In this document: positions 8,300-40,013 of the stretch, piece by piece
How positions within the stretch are numbered: the stretch's first letter is position 1
How the letters are laid out: each line of letters begins with the position of its first letter
NCBI RefSeq assembly: GCF_016863135.1
Contig: NZ_BOOH01000004.1
Span: forward strand, 1-64,000
Source: Planobispora longispora
Lineage (GTDB): Bacteria > Actinomycetota > Actinomycetes > Streptosporangiales > Streptosporangiaceae
Length of the DNA stretch: 64,000 nt
Direction: 5' to 3'
Notes under the pieces: generated by a model
What the model was told of the DNA's origin: nothing
The model's database searches: none
Seen by the model: only the letters and a program-made list of their open reading frames with translations
Program-made: the position numbers and the translations under genes

Positions 8300-8612
8300 G
8301 CGATCCCGCGGGGGAAACCGGCGTGCGGCGCGTCGACATCATCGGCCGTCACTGAGCGGCCCCGCGCGCGGGGAAACCACCGGGTCCGCCCCGGGCGCGC
8401 GGAGGAGCCACCGGGCGGGCCCGGACGGCCGTCCCGGATCCGTCCGGGCCGGTCCGCCGCGCGACGGACACGATCTCCCCCGCCCGGTGGAATTCGCCGC
8501 CGCGCGGGGCTGATTCCGATCAAGATCCCTTGTGCCGGCGATCACGCCGCTCGTAGCTTCTCCGTTGCCCGACCGCGCCATCGGACGCGCGGGACGTCCG
8601 GCGGAGGAGATC
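8300..8612. other. Intergenic region
   Basis: This 313-bp gap holds the terminator hairpin of the monooxygenase gene (8418-8450) and, presumably, the promoter of the secreted propeller gene. I see no ORF or RNA gene with support and no clear -35/-10 pair. Confidence 0.6.
8418..8450 (+). terminator. Hairpin terminator of the monooxygenase gene
   Basis: Perfect 11-bp inverted repeat GGCCCGGACGG/CCGTCCGGGCC with an 11-nt loop. No T-run follows, which is common for terminators in high-GC actinobacteria. Confidence 0.6.
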
Positions 8613-10587: not shown

Positions 10588-10738
10588 CCAGGGCCCCCTG
10601 ACGGGTCCTCAGCCGTCTCTCAGCGGCCGCTCAGCGACGGGTCGCACGATACGAGGGTCCGTCCCATAAGCCCGGAAACCGCGTGCAGGCAAGCGCGCGG
10701 GATATGCTCGAAGAACCTCGAACGACCCCCACCGGGAG

Positions 10739-11359
10739 GTGGCTCCGATCGGCACTTTCCTCACCATCGTCCTGGTGATCCTGCTGTTCCTCCTCATCCT
10801 GGGAGGAGCCGGGCTGTACCTGCTGGTCAAGGTGGGCAAGAAGGCCACGAAGAAGGCGCGGAAGGTGACGACCCGGGTGGTCTCCCACGTGGCCGCGATG
10901 GACCCCGGCGACGCCGGTGAGGCCGAGCGCATGCGGCTGGACCTGCGCCGTGAGGTCTCCATCACCCGCCAGGCCGTGGACCACGCCCTCCGGGACGGCT
11001 GGGGCCTGGGCGAGCTGCCCCAGTTGATCGGCGAGATCGGCATGCACGCCGACCAGCTCGACGCCCAGCTCGGCCGCTACGCCCAGCAGAGCCGCGTGTC
11101 CCCCTACGTCGACCACGCCACGCTCGCCCGCCTGCGCGACCAGCAGGCCAAGCTGACCACGGCCTGCGCGCGGATCCGCGCCGACCTGATGAACGACCAG
11201 ATGACGCACACGGCGAGCGGCATCGACGAGATCCAGAGCCGCACCGACCTGGAGATCGAGGCCCGCCGCCAGGCCCCGATCCCCGACCCGCTGGACCAGA
11301 TCGACGAGCTCTACAACCGCACGATGATCGACCGCGCGCGCCCGGAAGAGCCCCGCTGA
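10739..11359 (+). CDS. Single-pass membrane protein with cytoplasmic helical domain
   Basis: The product has 206 residues: a strongly hydrophobic N-terminal helix (about 5-32), a Lys/Arg stretch (KKATKKARK), then a charged, probably alpha-helical domain with regular Leu/Ala spacing. I recognise no family function. The start is unusual: the GTG at 10739 sits inside its own Shine-Dalgarno (GGGAGGTG), whereas the in-frame ATC at 10748 lies 8 nt after GGGAGG. Initiation at ATC, or a leaderless mRNA, is possible. Confidence 0.7.
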   Translation: MAPIGTFLTIVLVILLFLLILGGAGLYLLVKVGKKATKKARKVTTRVVSHVAAMDPGDAGEAERMRLDLRREVSITRQAVDHALRDGWGLGELPQLIGEIGMHADQLDAQLGRYAQQSRVSPYVDHATLARLRDQQAKLTTACARIRADLMNDQMTHTASGIDEIQSRTDLEIEARRQAPIPDPLDQIDELYNRTMIDRARPEEPR

Positions 11360-12292: not shown

Positions 12293-12408
12293 CCCGTCTC
12301 CGTTCCCCCGCCCTCGTTCTCGGACCAGCCGCGACCATAGCCCCCGGCCCGCCCGCGGGCGAGCGGTTTAACCGGCTCGCCACGCCACCCGGGCCGGAAC
12401 GGCCGTCC

Positions 12409-31835: not shown

Positions 31836-34697
31836 TCATCGCCCGGCGACGAGGACACGGACCTCTTCGGCCTCGGGAACGCCGAGATCCGTCAACTCCG
31901 TCAGAGCCTCCTCCCAGCACCGCCGCGCCGACTCGGCGTCACCCGCGCTCCGGTAGAGACGTCCCAGCAGCCGCAGAGCGCGGCCCCTGCCGTAACGGTC
32001 GGAGGTCTCGCCGAAGATGCCGACCGCCCGCGTCACCGGGGCGATCCCGCCCACGGCGTCGTTCCCCGCGAGACGCGTCTCCCCGATCTCGCAGAGGAGA
32101 TTCGCCACACGGGTCACGTACCCGATGCGCTCGGCGATCTCGAGGGCGCCCGTGAGGGCCTCGAGCGACTCGCCGAAACGACCGGCCGCCCGATGGGTGG
32201 TGGCCAGGTCGTCCAAGGCGTCTATCTGGCCGGGGTTGTCGCCGAGTTCCCGGCACAGCTTCACCGACGCCGCGTTGCACGCCTGCGCATCGTCATAGCG
32301 TCCCGCCTCGCGGTGGACGGCCGCGAGGTTGGCCAGGGCGTACCCCTGTGCCAGCCGGTCGCCGGCCTGCTCGGCGGCGGTCAGAGCGATCCCGTAGTGG
32401 TGGGCGGCTTCATCCGTGGATCCCATCAAGTGGTGGGCGACGCCCAGGTTGATGTGCCCCCGGACCTCCCCTCCGATGTCCCCGATCTCCTGGCGGACCT
32501 TCAAGCAGTTCTGGGCGTACGCCAGGGCAGCGGGGAGATCTCCGCGCTCCCTCCTCAGCTTGCCCAGTTCGTCCAGGGTGTCCGCCACATGGGCCGGGTT
32601 TCCCCGCCTCCTCGCGGCCGACAGCACCGACTCGTTGACACGGACCCATTCCTCCGTGGACCCGCGGAACCGGAACAGCCAGGTCAGTGCCCGCACCGTT
32701 GCGACGGCCGCTTCTTCGCACTCCGGTGACCGCAGGCCGGCGCGGATCGCCGCCAGCAGGTTCGGGCGCTCGGCGTCGAACCACGTGAGGGCCTCCTGCG
32801 CTCCGGCGAAAGGATGAGAGGGGGAGGACGCCTCGGATGACCTTTCCGTCAGCACCCGCACCGCGTGTCCGGCCAGGGCGCGGTACGCGTCGAGCAGCCG
32901 GTTCACGGCGCCGGAGAGCTCGTCCGGTGAATCGATCCCGGCCCGCTGGGCGGCGTAGAGCCGGACGAGGTCGTGCATCCGGTACCTGCCCGGCCGGTAC
33001 GGCTCGAGAAGCTGCGTCCGGACGAGATCGAACAGCGCCGTCGCCGCGGCGACGGGTGAGACGCCGAGAAGAGCGGCCGCGCTTTCCACTGTGATGTCCG
33101 GGCCGTCGATCAGGCCCAGGAGGCGGAACGCCCGGGCGGCTCGCGGCCGGTTCCCGAGCAGTTCGTAGCTCAGCTCGAAACTGGAGTTCACCGACAGGTC
33201 GTCCAGTTCGAGCTCCGCGAGGCGACGGCGGTGGTCCGCGAGGCGCTCGGCGAGCATCGTGAGGGACGAGCCCATCAGACTCTCGGCACGGGCTCCCGCG
33301 ATCCGCAACGCGAGCGGGAGGTGACCGCAGAGCCGGGACACCTCGGCCGCCGTCTCCGCGTCGGGCCGCTCGTCACGCCCGCCGACGATTCTGCCGAGGA
33401 ATTCGACCGCCTCGTCCTCGGCGAACATCCCCAGCCGGATCCGCCGCCCGACGGGCAGCGTCGCCAGGGAGTCCCTGCTGGTGATGACCGTGGCGCAGGC
33501 CGGGCCCGTCGCCAGCAGGGGCCTCACCTGGGAGACGTCGGCGGCGTTGTCCAGCACCACCAGCACCCGCCGGCGCGACAGGACGCTGCGGTAGAGGGCG
33601 ATCCGTTCCGTCTCGGAGGAGGGCGGCGGGCCGGTGGAACCGAGCGCGCGCAGGAACCCGGCGAGCACGTCGGCCGGCCGCTCGGACGCGCGCTGGACGC
33701 CTCCGAGGTCGACGTGGAGCTGGCCGTCCGGGTACCGATCGCGCAGCCGGTGGGCGACGTGTACGGCGAGCGCCGTCTTCCCCACTCCCGCCGGACCGGC
33801 GATCAGCATGACGGGGGACTCTTCGGCATCGGCCGCCGCGACCAGTTCGCCCACTTCCCGGGACCGGCCGGTGAAGTCGGCTATGCCGGCGGGCAGCTGC
33901 GCGGGGACCGGCCTTTCCTCCGCCCCGTCGGTGGGTGACCCGTCCGGCGGCCGGGTCACCGCCCCTTCGAGGATCTCCCGGTGCAGCTGTTGCAGCTCCG
34001 CCCCCGGTTCCATGCCGAGTTCCTCGACCAGGCAGCGCCGGGCCCGCGCGTAGGCGGCCGCGGCGTCCCCCCTGCGCCCGGCCCGGCGCAGCGCCATCAC
34101 CAGGGAACCCCACAGGGACTCGGAGAGGGGGTACTGACGCACGAGGGATTCCAGCTCCGCCACCAGTTCGCCGTCGCGGCCGAGGGCCAGCTCACCGCGG
34201 ACGCATCGCTCCAGGGCCGCCAGCCGCATCGAGTCGTACCGGGCCCGTTCGTCGGCGACGCTCCGCACGTCGATGCCGGCCAGCAGTTCCCCGCGCCACT
34301 CGCGCAGGGCAGCCCGCAGACGCGGGACCGCCTGACACGGATCGCGGATGTCGGCGGCCGCGGAGACCGCCCGCTCGAACCGTTCGACGTCCCGGCTCCC
34401 GGCCGCGACCCTCAGGCGGTACCCGTCCCCGTCCCTCCGCAACGCCACGCCCTCGCCTCCGGCGAGTTCCTTGCGGAGCCGGTAGACGTAGGCCTGCAGG
34501 CTCGACCGGGCCGCGGCGGGCGGGCTCCCGTTCCACAGCTCGTCGATCAGCCGTTCCTCGGTGATCACCTGGTTGGCGTCCAGGAGCAGCAGGGCCAGCA
34601 GGACTCTCTGTTTCGGAGCGGTGATCCGGATCTGCCGGCCGTTCTCGTGGATTTCCAGCGGACCAAGCATCCGGAAGTCCACCGAGCCCCCCGTCAC
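31836..34697 (-). CDS. AfsR-type SARP regulator with NB-ARC and TPR domains
   Basis: The 953-residue regulator has an OmpR-like winged helix (about 5-98: MLGPLEIHENGRQIRI), the BTAD domain (about 105-245), an NB-ARC NTPase with Walker A GPAGVGKTAL (301-310) and Walker B VLVVLDN near 385, and C-terminal TPR repeats (about 690-930, e.g. GHINLGVAHHLMG). This is the AfsR domain order; such proteins integrate signals and activate SARP genes. The start used is GTG 34697; GTG 34682 (VDFRMLG) would match SARP starts better. It diverges from a small SARP gene, whose promoter it may control (inference). Confidence 0.92.
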   Translation of the reverse strand: MTGGSVDFRMLGPLEIHENGRQIRITAPKQRVLLALLLLDANQVITEERLIDELWNGSPPAAARSSLQAYVYRLRKELAGGEGVALRRDGDGYRLRVAAGSRDVERFERAVSAAADIRDPCQAVPRLRAALREWRGELLAGIDVRSVADERARYDSMRLAALERCVRGELALGRDGELVAELESLVRQYPLSESLWGSLVMALRRAGRRGDAAAAYARARRCLVEELGMEPGAELQQLHREILEGAVTRPPDGSPTDGAEERPVPAQLPAGIADFTGRSREVGELVAAADAEESPVMLIAGPAGVGKTALAVHVAHRLRDRYPDGQLHVDLGGVQRASERPADVLAGFLRALGSTGPPPSSETERIALYRSVLSRRRVLVVLDNAADVSQVRPLLATGPACATVITSRDSLATLPVGRRIRLGMFAEDEAVEFLGRIVGGRDERPDAETAAEVSRLCGHLPLALRIAGARAESLMGSSLTMLAERLADHRRRLAELELDDLSVNSSFELSYELLGNRPRAARAFRLLGLIDGPDITVESAAALLGVSPVAAATALFDLVRTQLLEPYRPGRYRMHDLVRLYAAQRAGIDSPDELSGAVNRLLDAYRALAGHAVRVLTERSSEASSPSHPFAGAQEALTWFDAERPNLLAAIRAGLRSPECEEAAVATVRALTWLFRFRGSTEEWVRVNESVLSAARRRGNPAHVADTLDELGKLRRERGDLPAALAYAQNCLKVRQEIGDIGGEVRGHINLGVAHHLMGSTDEAAHHYGIALTAAEQAGDRLAQGYALANLAAVHREAGRYDDAQACNAASVKLCRELGDNPGQIDALDDLATTHRAAGRFGESLEALTGALEIAERIGYVTRVANLLCEIGETRLAGNDAVGGIAPVTRAVGIFGETSDRYGRGRALRLLGRLYRSAGDAESARRCWEEALTELTDLGVPEAEEVRVLVAGR

Positions 34698-34792
34698 TCA
34701 TCCCGCGGGCGAACCCCGCATCCGGCCACCGATCCATTCGAATGCCAGCATCCCGTCATCCGAATGGAGGCAGGACGACACGGAAAAACATT

Positions 34793-34808
34793 TCATGATT
34801 GATCATGA
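34793..34808. promoter_or_regulatory. 16-bp inverted repeat, possible operator
   Basis: TCATGAT and ATCATGA flank TG, about 95 bp upstream of the AfsR-type start on one side and 190 bp upstream of the SARP start on the other. It is AT-rich against its surroundings. Confidence 0.4.
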
Positions 34809-34869
34809 CTCACAAGTCACCCTCCGATATGAAATGCCTCTTTCTTCATCCGAAGTCCGGGAACCTGGC

Positions 34870-34898
34870 GCCAGCGGTCCGCCAGCGGTCCGCCAGCG
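34870..34898 (+). promoter_or_regulatory. SARP-type operator upstream of the small SARP gene
   Basis: Three perfect heptamers GCCAGCG at 34870, 34881 and 34892 are separated by 4 bp (11-bp period). Exactly 8 bp after the last one is GATGAT (34907-34912), a plausible -10. SARPs are known to bind such heptameric direct repeats 8 bp upstream of the -10. Confidence 0.7.
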
Positions 34899-34995
34899 AC
34901 GACGGTGATGATGACGCCTGCCTGCGACCCGGCAGGTGATCGCGACCGGCGAACCCGGCCGCAGACCGGTTTCGAGAGCATCGACCGGAGGTCAT

Positions 34996-35988
34996 ATGGA
35001 ATTTCGCATTCTGGGTGCGCTGGAAATAGCGCACGCGAACAGGACCATCCCACTCGGCGGATCGCGGCGGCGGGCCCTGCTGGCCGCGCTCCTCCTGCGG
35101 GCGAACGAGGCGGTCAGCGTCGGTTATCTGGCCGAAGCGATCTGGGAACGGATCCCCGCGTCCGCGTGCTCCAACCTGCGCACCCATATCGCGGGGCTGC
35201 GTCACGCGCTCACCCCCGCGGGGGCGCGCCTGGTGACGGAGCCCTCGGGCTACCGCCTGAGCGTCGGAGACGGCGAGCTGGACCTCCTCCGATTCGAGGA
35301 GGCGGCCGCGCGGGGCGCCGAGCTGATGGGCAGGGGCGAGATCGACGCGGCCGCCGACCATATCCACGCGGCACTGCGCATCTGGCGTGGCACACCCCTC
35401 CAAGGGCTGCCGCTCGGGCCGTTGCTGCAGGCGGAGGTGGCCCGGCTGGAGGAGCGGCGGCTCCGGGTCGTCGAACAGTGGCTCGCCGTACGGCGCGCGT
35501 GCGGCGCCCATCACGACGCCGTCGGCGAATTGCGCCGCCTCGTGGCAGAGCATCCTCTCCGGGAGAGCCTGTGGTCGCACCTGATGGCGACCCTCCACGA
35601 ATCCGGGCGTACGGCCGAGGCCCTGCAGGCGTACCAGGAGGCGCGGAGGCTGCTGCGGGAGCAGTTGGGCATCGATCCCGGCCCCGAGCTGCAGAGGGCC
35701 CACCAGCGGATCCTGCGGGGACAGACGGTCCCGCAGGCACCGAAGATCGCACAGCCCCGGGCGCTCCGCCGCGAGACGACCCCCGGCGGGACGCCGGCGC
35801 GGTCCCCGGCGGAATCCGCCGTACCGCGGGAAGGGCCGCCGTCGCTGGTCACGCTGCTGCGCGTCCAGAACACCGCCCTGCTCGAGCAGTGCGCCCGGCT
35901 CACGGCGGCGAACGAGCGCCTGACCTCACGCGTGGCGGAACTTGAGGGGCGACCGGCCCATCCGCGCAACCGGATGGGCGTCGGCTGA
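34996..35988 (+). CDS. Small SARP transcriptional activator
   Basis: The 330-residue SARP has a winged-helix DNA-binding domain (about 1-90: FRILGALEIAHANRTIPLGG) and BTAD (about 98-240, ending RLLREQLGIDPGPELQRAHQ), then a linker and a C-terminal predicted coiled coil (about 288-320) not usual in minimal SARPs. ATG 34996 has GGAGG 4 nt upstream; upstream in-frame codons lack a ribosome site. It immediately precedes the peptide/export genes, and SARP-like repeats lie before both this gene and the peptide gene, so it is the likely local activator. Confidence 0.92.
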   Translation: MEFRILGALEIAHANRTIPLGGSRRRALLAALLLRANEAVSVGYLAEAIWERIPASACSNLRTHIAGLRHALTPAGARLVTEPSGYRLSVGDGELDLLRFEEAAARGAELMGRGEIDAAADHIHAALRIWRGTPLQGLPLGPLLQAEVARLEERRLRVVEQWLAVRRACGAHHDAVGELRRLVAEHPLRESLWSHLMATLHESGRTAEALQAYQEARRLLREQLGIDPGPELQRAHQRILRGQTVPQAPKIAQPRALRRETTPGGTPARSPAESAVPREGPPSLVTLLRVQNTALLEQCARLTAANERLTSRVAELEGRPAHPRNRMGVG

Positions 35989-36067
35989 CGCGCACCGGAG
36001 GAACCCGGTCTTCCGGGGAGATCGGGAAACCCCCGGAAAAAACCGGCTCTCCCGGTCACGGCCCGCG

Positions 36068-36096
36068 CTGTGCCCGCCGTGTGCGCCGCCTGTGCG
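36068..36096 (+). promoter_or_regulatory. SARP-type operator upstream of the precursor peptide
   Basis: Heptamers CTGTGCC, GTGTGCG and CTGTGCG begin at 36068, 36079 and 36090 (11-bp period, 4-bp spacers; TGTGC invariant). A weak -10 candidate (CATCCT at 36107, or GACATC exactly 8 bp downstream) follows. The gene start is 36165. Confidence 0.65.
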
Positions 36097-36164
36097 GGCG
36101 AGAGGACATCCTGACGCCGTGTCCGGCTCTCCGAGGCCGGCTTCCAACGGAAGGGAAGTGAGTG

Positions 36165-36329
36165 ATGCTCCGTACCGCCGAGAGGATCGGGGACCGCCTG
36201 CTGTCGATGGTGGTGCCGCGCGCCGAGGCGAAGGCGTACTGGTGCCTCCACTGCACGCTCGCGTGGTCGCAGCGCTGCTACAACACCCCCAGCGGCACCT
36301 ACTGCACCTACCAGTGCATGTCCTGCTGA
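36165..36329 (+). CDS. Six-cysteine precursor peptide (candidate RiPP/bacteriocin)
   Basis: The 54-residue peptide starts at ATG 36165, 6 nt after a GGAAGGGAAG purine tract. Residues 1-24 form a charged leader with a mildly hydrophobic LLSMVVP segment but no Sec-type hydrophobic core, ending A-K-A at 22-24. The next 30 residues contain all six Cys (27, 30, 38, 47, 51, 54; spacing CX2C, X7, C, X8, C, X3, C, X2, C) plus several Tyr/Trp. Six Cys allow three disulfides. Genes for a thioredoxin-like protein, ABC exporter, MauE-like protein and S26 peptidase follow. A-K-A followed by Tyr25 is the inferred cleavage site. No homologue name comes to mind; activity is unknown. Confidence 0.75.
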   Translation: MLRTAERIGDRLLSMVVPRAEAKAYWCLHCTLAWSQRCYNTPSGTYCTYQCMSC

Positions 36330-36344
36330 TCTGAGATGACACGC

Positions 36345-36413
36345 CGGCTCAGCGCGGAGTGACTCCCATCAGCGAACCGGAGACTCCTGGCGGCCGTTCA
36401 CCGCGCTGAGCCG
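36345..36413 (+). terminator. Attenuator-like hairpin after the precursor gene
   Basis: Perfect 13-bp inverted repeat CGGCTCAGCGCGG/CCGCGCTGAGCCG enclosing 43 nt, between the precursor and the export genes. Partial termination here would make peptide mRNA more abundant than exporter mRNA, as is common for such precursors (inference). Confidence 0.6.
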
Positions 36414-36457
36414 CTTCTCCTCGTCAGAGATTCCCCGGGGTCGAAAGAAGGTTGTCC

Positions 36458-37018
36458 GTGCCGTATCTCGTTGCCGCCGTGGTCTTCGTCGGAGCCCTCG
36501 GCCTGCTCAATCTCCTGCTGGGTGTCGCGGTCATGGCCAGGCTCCGTGAGCACGCCCAGCAGATCGCCAAGCTGGGAGACCCCGCCAGACGGCCCGGCAC
36601 GGTCTCCGCGGGAGACTCCGTCGAGGCCTTCTCCGCTGTCACGACGTCGGGCGAACCGGTGGCCAGGGAACGGCTCGCGGACGGGACCCTGGTGGCGTTC
36701 TTCTCGCCCGGCTGCCCTTCGTGCGTCGAGCAGGCGGCCGAACTCGTCAGGCACGCCCCGGACTGGCCCGGCGGGCGGGACGCCGTCCTGTCCGTCGTCA
36801 TAGCGGATCCCGGTCAGGACGTCTCGGCACTGGTGGGCGAGCTCGAGCCGGTCTCCAAAGTGGTGGTCGAGCGCAACGGCGGCCCCCTCATGGCCGCCTT
36901 CCGGGTGGACTCCATCCCCGCGATGTGCGTGGTCGACGGCTTCGGCGTGGTCCTCGCCAGCGGCGGCAGGATGGAGCAGGTGCTCGTCACCCAGGTCACC
37001 CAGGTCACCCGGGCATGA
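36458..37018 (+). CDS. Membrane-anchored thioredoxin-like protein (TlpA/MauD type)
   Basis: The 186-residue protein has one N-terminal membrane helix (about 4-24), then a thioredoxin-like fold with FFSPGCPSC (Cys86 and Cys89), and the cis-Pro-type segment SIPAMCVVDG near residue 155. The fold faces outward if the helix is a signal anchor. MauD/TlpA proteins exchange disulfides in secreted substrates. GTG 36458 is preferred over TTG 36452 because GAAGG (36447-36451) is 6 nt away. Its stop overlaps the ABC gene start as ATGA. Confidence 0.88.
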   Translation: MPYLVAAVVFVGALGLLNLLLGVAVMARLREHAQQIAKLGDPARRPGTVSAGDSVEAFSAVTTSGEPVARERLADGTLVAFFSPGCPSCVEQAAELVRHAPDWPGGRDAVLSVVIADPGQDVSALVGELEPVSKVVVERNGGPLMAAFRVDSIPAMCVVDGFGVVLASGGRMEQVLVTQVTQVTRA

Positions 37019-38910
37019 ACGGCCGCGCGTCCCGCCTGGCCGCAGCGGCCAGGGCCGTCTCGCTGGGGTGGCGCGCCGCCCCTCGTCTCCTGGCGGCTTA
37101 CACGGCCTTCACCGTGGTCTCGGCCGGGCTTCCGGTGCTGGTCGCCTGGCTGACCAAGGTCGTACTGGACGGCCTGGTCCGGGGGGCGGCGGAGGACGTC
37201 CTCCTCGGGCTGGCCGCCGCGCTGGCCTGCGCCGGACTCCTGTTCTCCATAGCCCAGCACGCGGCGGAGTTCCTGCGCGCCGAGGCGCACCGGCGCATCG
37301 GGCTGGCCAGCAAGAACCTCCTCTTCCGCGCGGTGGAGCGATTCGTCGGTCTCGCCCCGTTCGAGCGGCCCGAGTTCCACGACAGGCTCCGGCTCGCCGA
37401 GGAGGCCGGCGCGACCTCACCCGGGAACGTCGTCAACGGGCTGCTCCAGGGGGCGCGGGGAGTCCTGGTGCTCGCCGGTTTCGCCGGCTCCCTGGTCTTC
37501 ATCAACCCGCTGCTGGCGCTGATCGTCGCCGTTTCGGCCCTTCCGGCGCTGGTCGCCGAGAACTCGCTGGCCCGCGAGAAGGTCGGGATGATGGCCAGGA
37601 TCAGCCCGATGATGCGGCGCGAGATGTTCTTCAGCCAGCTGCTGACCGACAGCCAGTCGGCCAAGGAGGCCAGGCTCTTCGGCTTCTCCGCCTTCCTTCG
37701 CGGGCGCATATCGGCCGAGCGGACGGCCGCCAACGAAGCCGAGCACCGGCTGGACCGCAAGCAGTTCACCACGCAGAGCGGGCTGTCGTTCGTCTCGGCG
37801 GGAGTCGCCGGGCTGGGCCTCGTCTGGGCCGTGCTCGCCGCCCGGAGCGGCGCCCTGTCGCTCGGCGACGTGTCGATGCTGGTGGCGTCCCTGGCCGGGA
37901 CCCAGACCGCCCTGTCGCAGCTCGTCCAGCACTACGCCGCCACGCGGCAGGCGCTGCTGCTGTTCACCCACTACCTGGAGATCGTCGAGGCCGAGGCCGA
38001 CCTGCCGGTCCCGGCGCCCGCCCGGCAGGCCCCCCCTCTGCGAAGCGGCATCGAACTGCGCGACGTGTGGTTCCGCTACTCCGACGAGCATGACTGGATC
38101 CTGCGCGGAGTGGACCTCTTCATCCCCCGCGGCTCGGCCCTGGCGCTGGTCGGCCGCAACGGCGCGGGCAAGAGCACGCTGGTCAAGCTCCTGTGCCGGT
38201 TCTACGACCCCACCCGCGGGGCGATCCTGTGGGACGGCGTCGACCTGCGCACCATGGACCCGCACTCCCTGCGGGCCCGCATCTCCGCCGTCTTCCAGGA
38301 CTTCATGCAGTACGACATGACCGCCGCCGAGAACATCGGCCTGGGGGACGTCGACGCGCTCGGCGACCGGGAGGCGCTGACCCGGGCGGCGGGCATCGCG
38401 GGGATCCACCGGACCCTCGCGGCCCTTCCGGGCGGGTACGACACCATGCTGAGCCGGTCGTTCGCCGCCGAGCCGGCATCGCCCCCGCCCGCCGGGGAGA
38501 CCGGCGGCGATCAGACCGGCGAGCCCTTCTCCCCGGCCTCCGGCTTCACCCTCTCCACCGGGCAGTGGCAGCGCCTGGCCGTCGCCCGCGCGTTCCTCCG
38601 CGGGCGACGCGATCTGATGATCCTCGACGAACCCAGTTCGGGCCTGGACGCCGCCGCCGAGTACCGGCTCCACTCTGTCCTGAGGCGCCACCGGTCGGGC
38701 CGGACCAGTGTGCTGATCTCGCACCGCATGAACACGCTGCGGGACGCCGACCTCATCGTGGTCCTGGTGGACGGGCGCGTCACCGAGCGGGGAAGCCACA
38801 CCGACCTCATGGCGTCGGCGGGCGAGTACGCCCGGCTCTTCTCCCTGCAGGCCGAGGGATACACCGAGCCGGCCGCCAGTCTCGGCATGAGCGACACCGG
38901 GTCGCGTTGA
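37015..38910 (+). CDS. ABC exporter (fused TM and ATPase)
   Basis: The 631-residue half-transporter has six membrane helices (about 20-330) and a nucleotide-binding domain with Walker A GRNGAGKSTL (about 380-389), signature LSTGQ (about 513, in place of LSGGQ) and Walker B LMILDEPSSGLD (about 533). A Pro/Gly/Glu-rich insertion (about 483-508) sits just before the signature. It lacks the N-terminal C39 peptidase domain that processes double-glycine leaders, which fits a separate protease in the operon. The likely cargo is the six-Cys peptide. Confidence 0.92.
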   Translation: MNGRASRLAAAARAVSLGWRAAPRLLAAYTAFTVVSAGLPVLVAWLTKVVLDGLVRGAAEDVLLGLAAALACAGLLFSIAQHAAEFLRAEAHRRIGLASKNLLFRAVERFVGLAPFERPEFHDRLRLAEEAGATSPGNVVNGLLQGARGVLVLAGFAGSLVFINPLLALIVAVSALPALVAENSLAREKVGMMARISPMMRREMFFSQLLTDSQSAKEARLFGFSAFLRGRISAERTAANEAEHRLDRKQFTTQSGLSFVSAGVAGLGLVWAVLAARSGALSLGDVSMLVASLAGTQTALSQLVQHYAATRQALLLFTHYLEIVEAEADLPVPAPARQAPPLRSGIELRDVWFRYSDEHDWILRGVDLFIPRGSALALVGRNGAGKSTLVKLLCRFYDPTRGAILWDGVDLRTMDPHSLRARISAVFQDFMQYDMTAAENIGLGDVDALGDREALTRAAGIAGIHRTLAALPGGYDTMLSRSFAAEPASPPPAGETGGDQTGEPFSPASGFTLSTGQWQRLAVARAFLRGRRDLMILDEPSSGLDAAAEYRLHSVLRRHRSGRTSVLISHRMNTLRDADLIVVLVDGRVTERGSHTDLMASAGEYARLFSLQAEGYTEPAASLGMSDTGSR

Positions 38911-38920
38911 GGAGATGATC

Positions 38921-39463
38921 ATGCACTACCTGGAGCTGTCGTGCCGGGCGCTTCTGGCCCTCGTCTTCACCGTGTCGGCGGCGGGCAAGGCCAGGAACAC
39001 GGCCTCGTGGCGGTCCTTCACCCGATCCCTGACCGACCTCGGGATCGCCGCCCGGTGGGCGCCTCCCGCGGCCGTGACCGTCACCGCCGCCGAGGCTCTG
39101 ACCGCGGCGTCACTGGTCTGGGCACCCTCCGCGCGGATCGGCTACATGCTCGCGGCGGGCATGTTGCTGATCTTCACCACGGTGATCTGGCGCACCGTCC
39201 GGCGTGAGGCGACCGTACGGTGCGCCTGCTTCGGACCGTCCGGGGCGCCGATGAGCCGCCGCCACCTGTTCCGCAACGGCCTGCTCCTGGCCGTCACCGC
39301 AGGCGGCTGGGCGCTCGCCCGTCCCGGCGGGGCCCATGAGGCCGCCGGCGTGGCCATCGCCCTGGGCGCCGCGTTCACCGCCGGGATGCTCGTCGTCCGT
39401 TTCGACGACCTGGCGGCCCTCGTCGCCGGACCCCCGCGAACGCGCCGGGAGAGCGCGCGGTGA
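38921..39463 (+). CDS. MauE/DoxX-type redox membrane protein
   Basis: The 180-residue protein has four to five membrane helices and a conserved-looking Cys pair C101-A-C103-F, matching MauE/DoxX-like proteins that accompany MauD thioredoxins and pass electrons or maintain disulfides across the membrane. The start at ATG 38921 is supported by GAGGAG 6 nt upstream; ATG 38915 abuts the ribosome site. It is placed between the ABC exporter (10-bp gap) and the S26 peptidase gene (7-bp gap), in one operon. Confidence 0.88.
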   Translation: MHYLELSCRALLALVFTVSAAGKARNTASWRSFTRSLTDLGIAARWAPPAAVTVTAAEALTAASLVWAPSARIGYMLAAGMLLIFTTVIWRTVRREATVRCACFGPSGAPMSRRHLFRNGLLLAVTAGGWALARPGGAHEAAGVAIALGAAFTAGMLVVRFDDLAALVAGPPRTRRESAR

Positions 39464-39470
39464 ACCGGAC

Positions 39471-40013
39471 ATGCTCGGTGTGATCCTCGCCGGCGCGCTG
39501 TCGGCGGCCGGTCTCCTGTTCGTGTGCGCGCTCGTCCCGGTGCTGACCGGCCGGGTGTTCACGGTGAACGTGAACGGCCGGAGCATGGAGCCGACGCTCC
39601 GGCCGGGCCAGAGAGTGCTCATCCGGCGCCGTCCGGGCCGAGGGCTCCGGCCGGGAGCCCTGGTGCTGCTGCGGGGCCCCGGCACCGCCGCAGGCCCCGC
39701 CCCGGGAAACGCGCCTCACGGCGCGCCGGACCTGCCGGGTACGGCGCCGCTCCTCATCAAGAGGGTGATCGCCGTACCCGGTGATCCGGTGCCCGCGGAG
39801 TTCGAACGCAGCACGGGGACGCCCGCGGGGTCACCCGTGCCGGAAGGAAAGATCATCATCCGGGGCGACAATCCCCGCTACAGCGTGGATTCCCTCATGA
39901 CCGGGTTCTACGGAATCGACATGGTCGTCGGCACGGCCCTGCGCCCCGCGGCCGTGTTCCGCGGCCTCTTCCGGCCGGTCATCCGCCGGGACCCGTCCGG
40001 CGCCGGCCGATGA
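39471..40013 (+). CDS. S26 signal peptidase
   Basis: The 180-residue type I signal peptidase has one membrane anchor (about 5-26), catalytic Ser38 in NGRSMEPTL and catalytic Lys97 in LLIKRVIAVPGD, plus GDNPRYSVDS near 140. It is a Ser-Lys dyad enzyme with a single TM, as in chromosomal SipW/LepB-like enzymes. Being the last gene of the peptide operon, it is inferred to cut the precursor after A-K-A once the exporter has delivered it. No Sec signal is evident in that precursor, which makes the pairing unusual. Confidence 0.92.
   Translation: MLGVILAGALSAAGLLFVCALVPVLTGRVFTVNVNGRSMEPTLRPGQRVLIRRRPGRGLRPGALVLLRGPGTAAGPAPGNAPHGAPDLPGTAPLLIKRVIAVPGDPVPAEFERSTGTPAGSPVPEGKIIIRGDNPRYSVDSLMTGFYGIDMVVGTALRPAAVFRGLFRPVIRRDPSGAGR

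Follow-up and report, generated by a model that had tools for sequence, protein, structure and literature searches.

What controls the small regulatory gene that precedes a Cys-rich peptide gene in Planobispora longispora, and is the perfect repeat array in front of it an operator? In the window, i.e., the whole stretch of 64,000 nucleotides that was analysed, this array lies between two divergent genes, both of which encode SARP-domain proteins. The features of the locus were the following:

31836-34697, minus strand: divergent large SARP of the AfsR type, 953 aa, with SARP, NB-ARC and TPR domains
34869-34898, plus strand: three direct repeats CGCCAGCG with an 11-bp period, predicted SARP-type operator (scans; conservation in the ortholog locus L104)
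34907-34912, plus strand: GATGAT, candidate -10 hexamer (CACGAT in L104), placed by the spacing rule in PMC10936776 at 8 bp after the last heptamer
34996-35988, plus strand: small SARP, 330 aa, with winged-helix DNA-binding domain and BTAD; ATG at 34996 after GGAGG
36069-36097, plus strand: imperfect 11-bp triple TGTGCCC/TGTGCGC/TGTGCGG before the peptide gene
36165-36329, plus strand: 54-aa Cys-rich peptide, whose leader ends in AEAKA, followed by YWCLHC
36452-37018, plus strand: TlpA/redoxin-like protein of the thioredoxin family
37015-38910, plus strand: ABC exporter, fused permease and ATPase
38915-39463, plus strand: MauE-family membrane protein
39336-40013, plus strand: S26-type signal peptidase

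The 330-aa protein gave Trans_reg_C and BTAD matches above the cut-off and matched the AfsR and EmbR structures, which places it among the small SARPs. The domains of the divergent protein are those of the AfsR type, and its score of 568 bits, under the NCBIfam AfsR cut-off of 1430, indicated that it is AfsR-like and not AfsR itself. Past this gene the neighbourhood was ordinary, with an amino-acid-type ABC transporter and, further out, polA.

The heptamer GCCAGCG was found at 34870-34876, 34881-34887 and 34892-34898, all three copies being perfect and in register with an 11-bp period, and both spacers between them read GTCC. Since every copy is preceded by C, the true unit is the 8-bp CGCCAGCG plus 3 free bp. 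The last heptamer was followed by the 8-bp ACGACGGT and then by GATGAT, and the array (34869-34912) with its flanks is composed, in order, of CTGG, CGCCAGCGGTC, CGCCAGCGGTC, CGCCAGCG, ACGACGGT, GATGAT and GACG. The initial annotation, which had described three GCCAGCG copies with identical 4-bp spacers and GATGAT exactly 8 bp further on, was correct. GATGAT is a weak match to a -10 hexamer, and GCCAGCG is G+C-rich, as is the background.

An explicit period-11 scan scored the triple at 21/21; 40 copies of the window generated by a first-order Markov model (2.56 Mb) yielded no score above 19, and 3000 copies of the 298-bp intergenic region none above 18. When three mismatches were allowed, shuffled sequence contained on average 0.07 matches to the pattern of the triple per window, against one perfect match in the real sequence. 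Across the 8.84-Mb genome, no perfect instance other than the array at 34870-34898 occurred; the next best matches had two mismatches, and the other genomic matches (two or three mismatches) were no commoner than those of a reversed control pattern. On the opposite strand, the hexamer 8 bp away from the array was CCGGAC, which is not -10-like, so the array was assigned to the promoter of the small SARP gene, whose start lies 97 bp downstream.

These properties correspond to those described for SARP sites, in which direct repeats recur at 11 or 22 bp and the 3' copy is 8 bp from the -10 (PMC10936776). The one-turn heptameric repeats are present as a perfect triple, and the 3' repeat stands at that distance from the putative -10 GATGAT, with NANNNT also present in L104. 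Of every 11-bp repeat in the AfsR complex, a protomer touches bp 1 to 8 and makes no contact with the remaining 3 (PMC10936776). With GATGAT taken as the -10, the predicted transcription start falls near 34919, and units 2 and 3 extend from about -39 to about -18, which agrees to about 1 bp with the AfsR box at -40 to -19. Hence, the repeats at 34869-34898 are predicted, with a probability of about 0.82, to be a SARP-type operator of the small SARP promoter; the proposal that they serve this gene is well supported by their geometry and orientation, by the statistics and by their conservation in L104. From the sequence we infer binding to the array, activation and the identity of the binder. 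SARP protomers would line up along one face of the DNA, each on its own 11-bp unit. The two units closest to GATGAT would stand in for a -35 element and bring in RNA polymerase, and the third, upstream copy would add one protomer. A SARP seated on this operator would switch on the small SARP gene, whose output would be expected to feed the peptide operon. Elsewhere in the intergenic region, the A+T-rich stretch AAACATTTCATGATTGATCATGACTCACAAGTCA (34783-34820) was well conserved in L104 and may belong to the promoter of the large SARP or be a further binding site.

The only ortholog locus found in a DNA search of 345 genomes was L104, in a genome of another genus (G135). When the small SARP was searched against 84,980 genomes, distant matches alone were obtained (27–33%) and no close ortholog; in a plasmid collection no peptide homologue was detected and all SARP matches were below 60%. 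The DNA-binding region of the large SARP was 87% identical in L104, and the small SARP was 80% identical over residues 1-167. The L104 array reads GCCAGCG acgc ACCAGTG accc GCCAGCG gcaatgac CACGAT, with all three repeats in register. Heptamers were identical to those of the window at 19/21 positions, whereas spacers were identical at only 6/16 (Fisher p = 0.0011, from one pairwise comparison), so that the repeats are conserved above the spacers in the one orthologous promoter. Although the hexamer differs (CACGAT vs GATGAT), NANNNT is kept at the -10 position. The array being in register in both loci, it must predate their split (dS about 0.3), after which the repeats were retained and the spacers were not. 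The repeats, proposed earlier as something to look for in close relatives with the same genes, were thus present in the one relative available, in which the SARP is truncated and the peptide gene is gone. A single deletion there (window about 35,500-36,824) removed the C-terminal half of the SARP, the peptide gene and most of the thioredoxin gene. Because of these losses, the degraded middle heptamer (ACCAGTG) and the different -10, the constraint acting on L104 is uncertain, and relaxed constraint could lie behind the changes in the middle copy. The junction, at about 7765-7890 of L104, leads from SARP codon about 167 directly into the 3' end of the thioredoxin gene, and the reading frames of the large SARP, the ABC exporter and MauE have stayed open.

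The predicted GCCAGCG operator is a new example of an already well-known kind. In S. natalensis, the PimR site TGGCAAGaaagCGGCAGGtgttCGGCAAG lies between the divergent pimM and pimR (PMC3367932); it likewise consists of three heptamers with 4-bp spacers between genes for a multidomain SARP and a second regulator. PimR activates that second gene, the step for which the window counterpart is inferred. PimR is nevertheless a SARP-LAL whose target is a PAS-LuxR gene, whereas the window pairs an AfsR-type SARP with a SARP gene; the heptamers differ, and the window site occupies the -35 position, whereas that of PimR lies clear of the -35 region. The afs box of the afsS promoter is similarly built of 11-bp units in which 8 bp are conserved, and its downstream unit is at promoter distance from the -10 (PMC10936776), and the large SARP next to the window array has the AfsR architecture. 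That box, however, has two units of CGTT(T/C)ATCGNN and afsS as its target, as opposed to three units before a SARP gene. PolY of S. cacaoi, a large NB-ARC/TPR SARP, directly activates the SARP gene polR of the same cluster (as cited in PMC10972967), but in a polyoxin nucleoside pathway, and the corresponding cascade of the window is a predicted one. The operators of DnrI, ActII-ORF4, VlmI and FdmR1 also carry three heptameric repeats at the promoter (PMC10972967); they precede other cluster genes, whereas the window operator precedes a SARP gene.

As for which protein binds, the divergent large SARP alone is the leading candidate, held tentatively; binding by the small SARP to its own gene is a possibility held with some doubt, the use of the site by both SARPs is unlikely, and another regulator would be improbable. 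The earlier statement that the heptamer before the peptide gene differs from GCCAGCG held true, the copies being TGTGCCC, TGTGCGC and TGTGCGG. This box scored 17/21 (p about 0.005-0.02), and, with TGTGCGG taken as its final heptamer, no clean hexamer was found exactly 8 bp downstream; the closest NANNNT hexamer, CATCCT (36107-36112), is 9 bp away. The AfsR recognition helix residues are R87, T88, S91, R92, R94 and K95 (PMC10936776), and their counterparts lie in RTHIAGLRH in the small SARP and QAYVYRLRK in the large one. Most of the variable positions differ between these helices, each of which is nearly unchanged in L104.

Two helices so different are compatible with two different heptamers, and to that extent the idea of two regulators with two heptamers stood. 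In a linear cascade of the kind suggested by the initial annotation, the large SARP would bind the GCCAGCG operator only and the small SARP, once made, would alone bind TGTGCNC and activate the peptide operon. Besides the differing heptamers and helices, this tentative reading has precedents in PolY acting on polR, CpkO on cpkN and PimR on pimM (PMC10972967, PMC3367932). Against it, no specificity code could be derived, and in many related cassettes a large SARP was the only SARP found near the peptide, so direct action of a large SARP on peptide promoters is possible. A candidate recognition code, in which the Gly of the small SARP at the position equivalent to AfsR Arg92 would predict the base at position 3, was dropped: when the boxes of SARP genes without the Arg92 equivalent had been aligned into a motif and both window operators scored, the operator before the small SARP gene did no better than random triples (P = 0.57). 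The SARP-domain tree was uninformative as a pointer to the ancestral cassette regulator, since neither window SARP fell inside the clades of other peptide cassettes (long, weak branches).

Alternatively, the small SARP might occupy the GCCAGCG repeats of its own gene in a positive feedback, the large SARP acting elsewhere, possibly on the peptide promoter. This is possible, if doubtful. Lone SARP genes of the family often carry triples 77–97 bp before their own starts (e.g., L106, L206, L208 and L185), the small SARP has its site at 97 bp as well, and PieR binds upstream of pieR (PMC10972967). Nevertheless, a motif built from such self-proximal boxes fitted the window operator no better than random triples did (P = 0.57), and the most obvious target of the small SARP, the peptide gene, has a different heptamer. 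Autoregulation by the small SARP would account for the observations just as well, so the cascade from large SARP to small SARP to peptide is a plausible proposal.

A site for an OmpR-type response regulator, e.g., a PhoP-like protein, instead of a SARP is quite improbable: PhoP and AfsR do share an 11-bp repeat architecture and PhoP also binds the AfsR site (PMC10972967), but the array lies between two SARP genes, no response regulator was recognised among the adjoining genes scanned, and GCCAGCG is unlike the AfsR/PhoP repeat CGTT(T/C)ATCGNN (PMC10972967). The weakest explanation, a non-functional tandem duplication from replication slippage of an 11-bp unit, would account for the identical first two 11-mers (CGCCAGCGGTC twice in tandem) and is very improbable given the exact one-turn period, the 8 bp to a -10-like hexamer and the L104 array, whose shared register and conserved heptamers beside diverged spacers show that the array did not arise by recent slippage.

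To return to the predicted SARP-type operator, similar boxes were frequent in the family, where 29 of 121 SARP genes (those of the window and L104 included) had an upstream 11-bp triple at p ≤ 0.05, compared with an expectation of about 6. Many such triples were 77–97 bp before the start, and their heptamer sequences varied widely. In another genome (G372; L194/L213), a divergent SARP pair has between its genes a triple of the CCAGC type (GTCCAGC/GGCCAGC/GTCAAGC), and no peptide cassette was found there. A second triple of the window, CTCAGCC/CTCAGCG/CTCAGCG at 10608-10636 with CACGAT exactly 8 bp on, has the anatomy of a SARP operator and CAGCG in common with the array. It is upstream of a 206-aa gene (10739-11359) of no Pfam family, and none of the genes scanned around it encoded a SARP.

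Furthermore, at E ≤ 0.01, 49 of 297 family genomes, counting that of the window itself, had a relative of the peptide. Most of the peptide loci inspected had the same cassette, many with a large SARP nearby. It comprises a short Cys-rich peptide, MauE, a TlpA-like thioredoxin, an ABC exporter, an S26 signal peptidase and a SARP (window 36165-40013; loci L033-L072). The peptides share the leader GDRLL..VVPxAxAxA, and no Pfam or NCBIfam model matched those tested; such peptides, exported and folded by oxidation, may form a class of their own that has yet to be described. Strong 11-bp triples preceded the peptide or SARP gene in several cassette loci, with triples of 19/21 in L041, L042, L043 and L045, and no GCCAGCG-like triples were found in the other cassette loci. 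Alignment of the related peptide promoters gave an 11-bp repeat of the T(A/T)GCGC type, which resembles either window operator too weakly for an assignment. L050 has two perfect 11-bp triples (8322-8350 and 12349-12377; heptamers GTAGCGC and CTGACCG), the first or second of which precedes the peptide gene and the other the sole SARP gene found nearby, a natural arrangement that parallels the window but has a single SARP in place of two.

Taken as a whole, the locus might be a two-tier relay, from an AfsR-type sensor SARP to a small SARP through two orthogonal heptamer codes, set over a conserved, undescribed cassette in which MauE, the TlpA-like protein, the ABC exporter and the S26 peptidase would serve to oxidise a Cys-rich peptide and to export it. 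Many relatives of the cassette have a single large SARP. This comprehensive reading is possible, if doubtful. The regulated cassette is more unusual than the operator, and the GCCAGCG site offers an exact, testable handle by which a silent peptide cluster, one of a little-studied type, could be activated. For the DNA choice of SARPs, for which no simple code gave a prediction here, two adjoining SARPs with very different helices and two heptamers would be a compact system.
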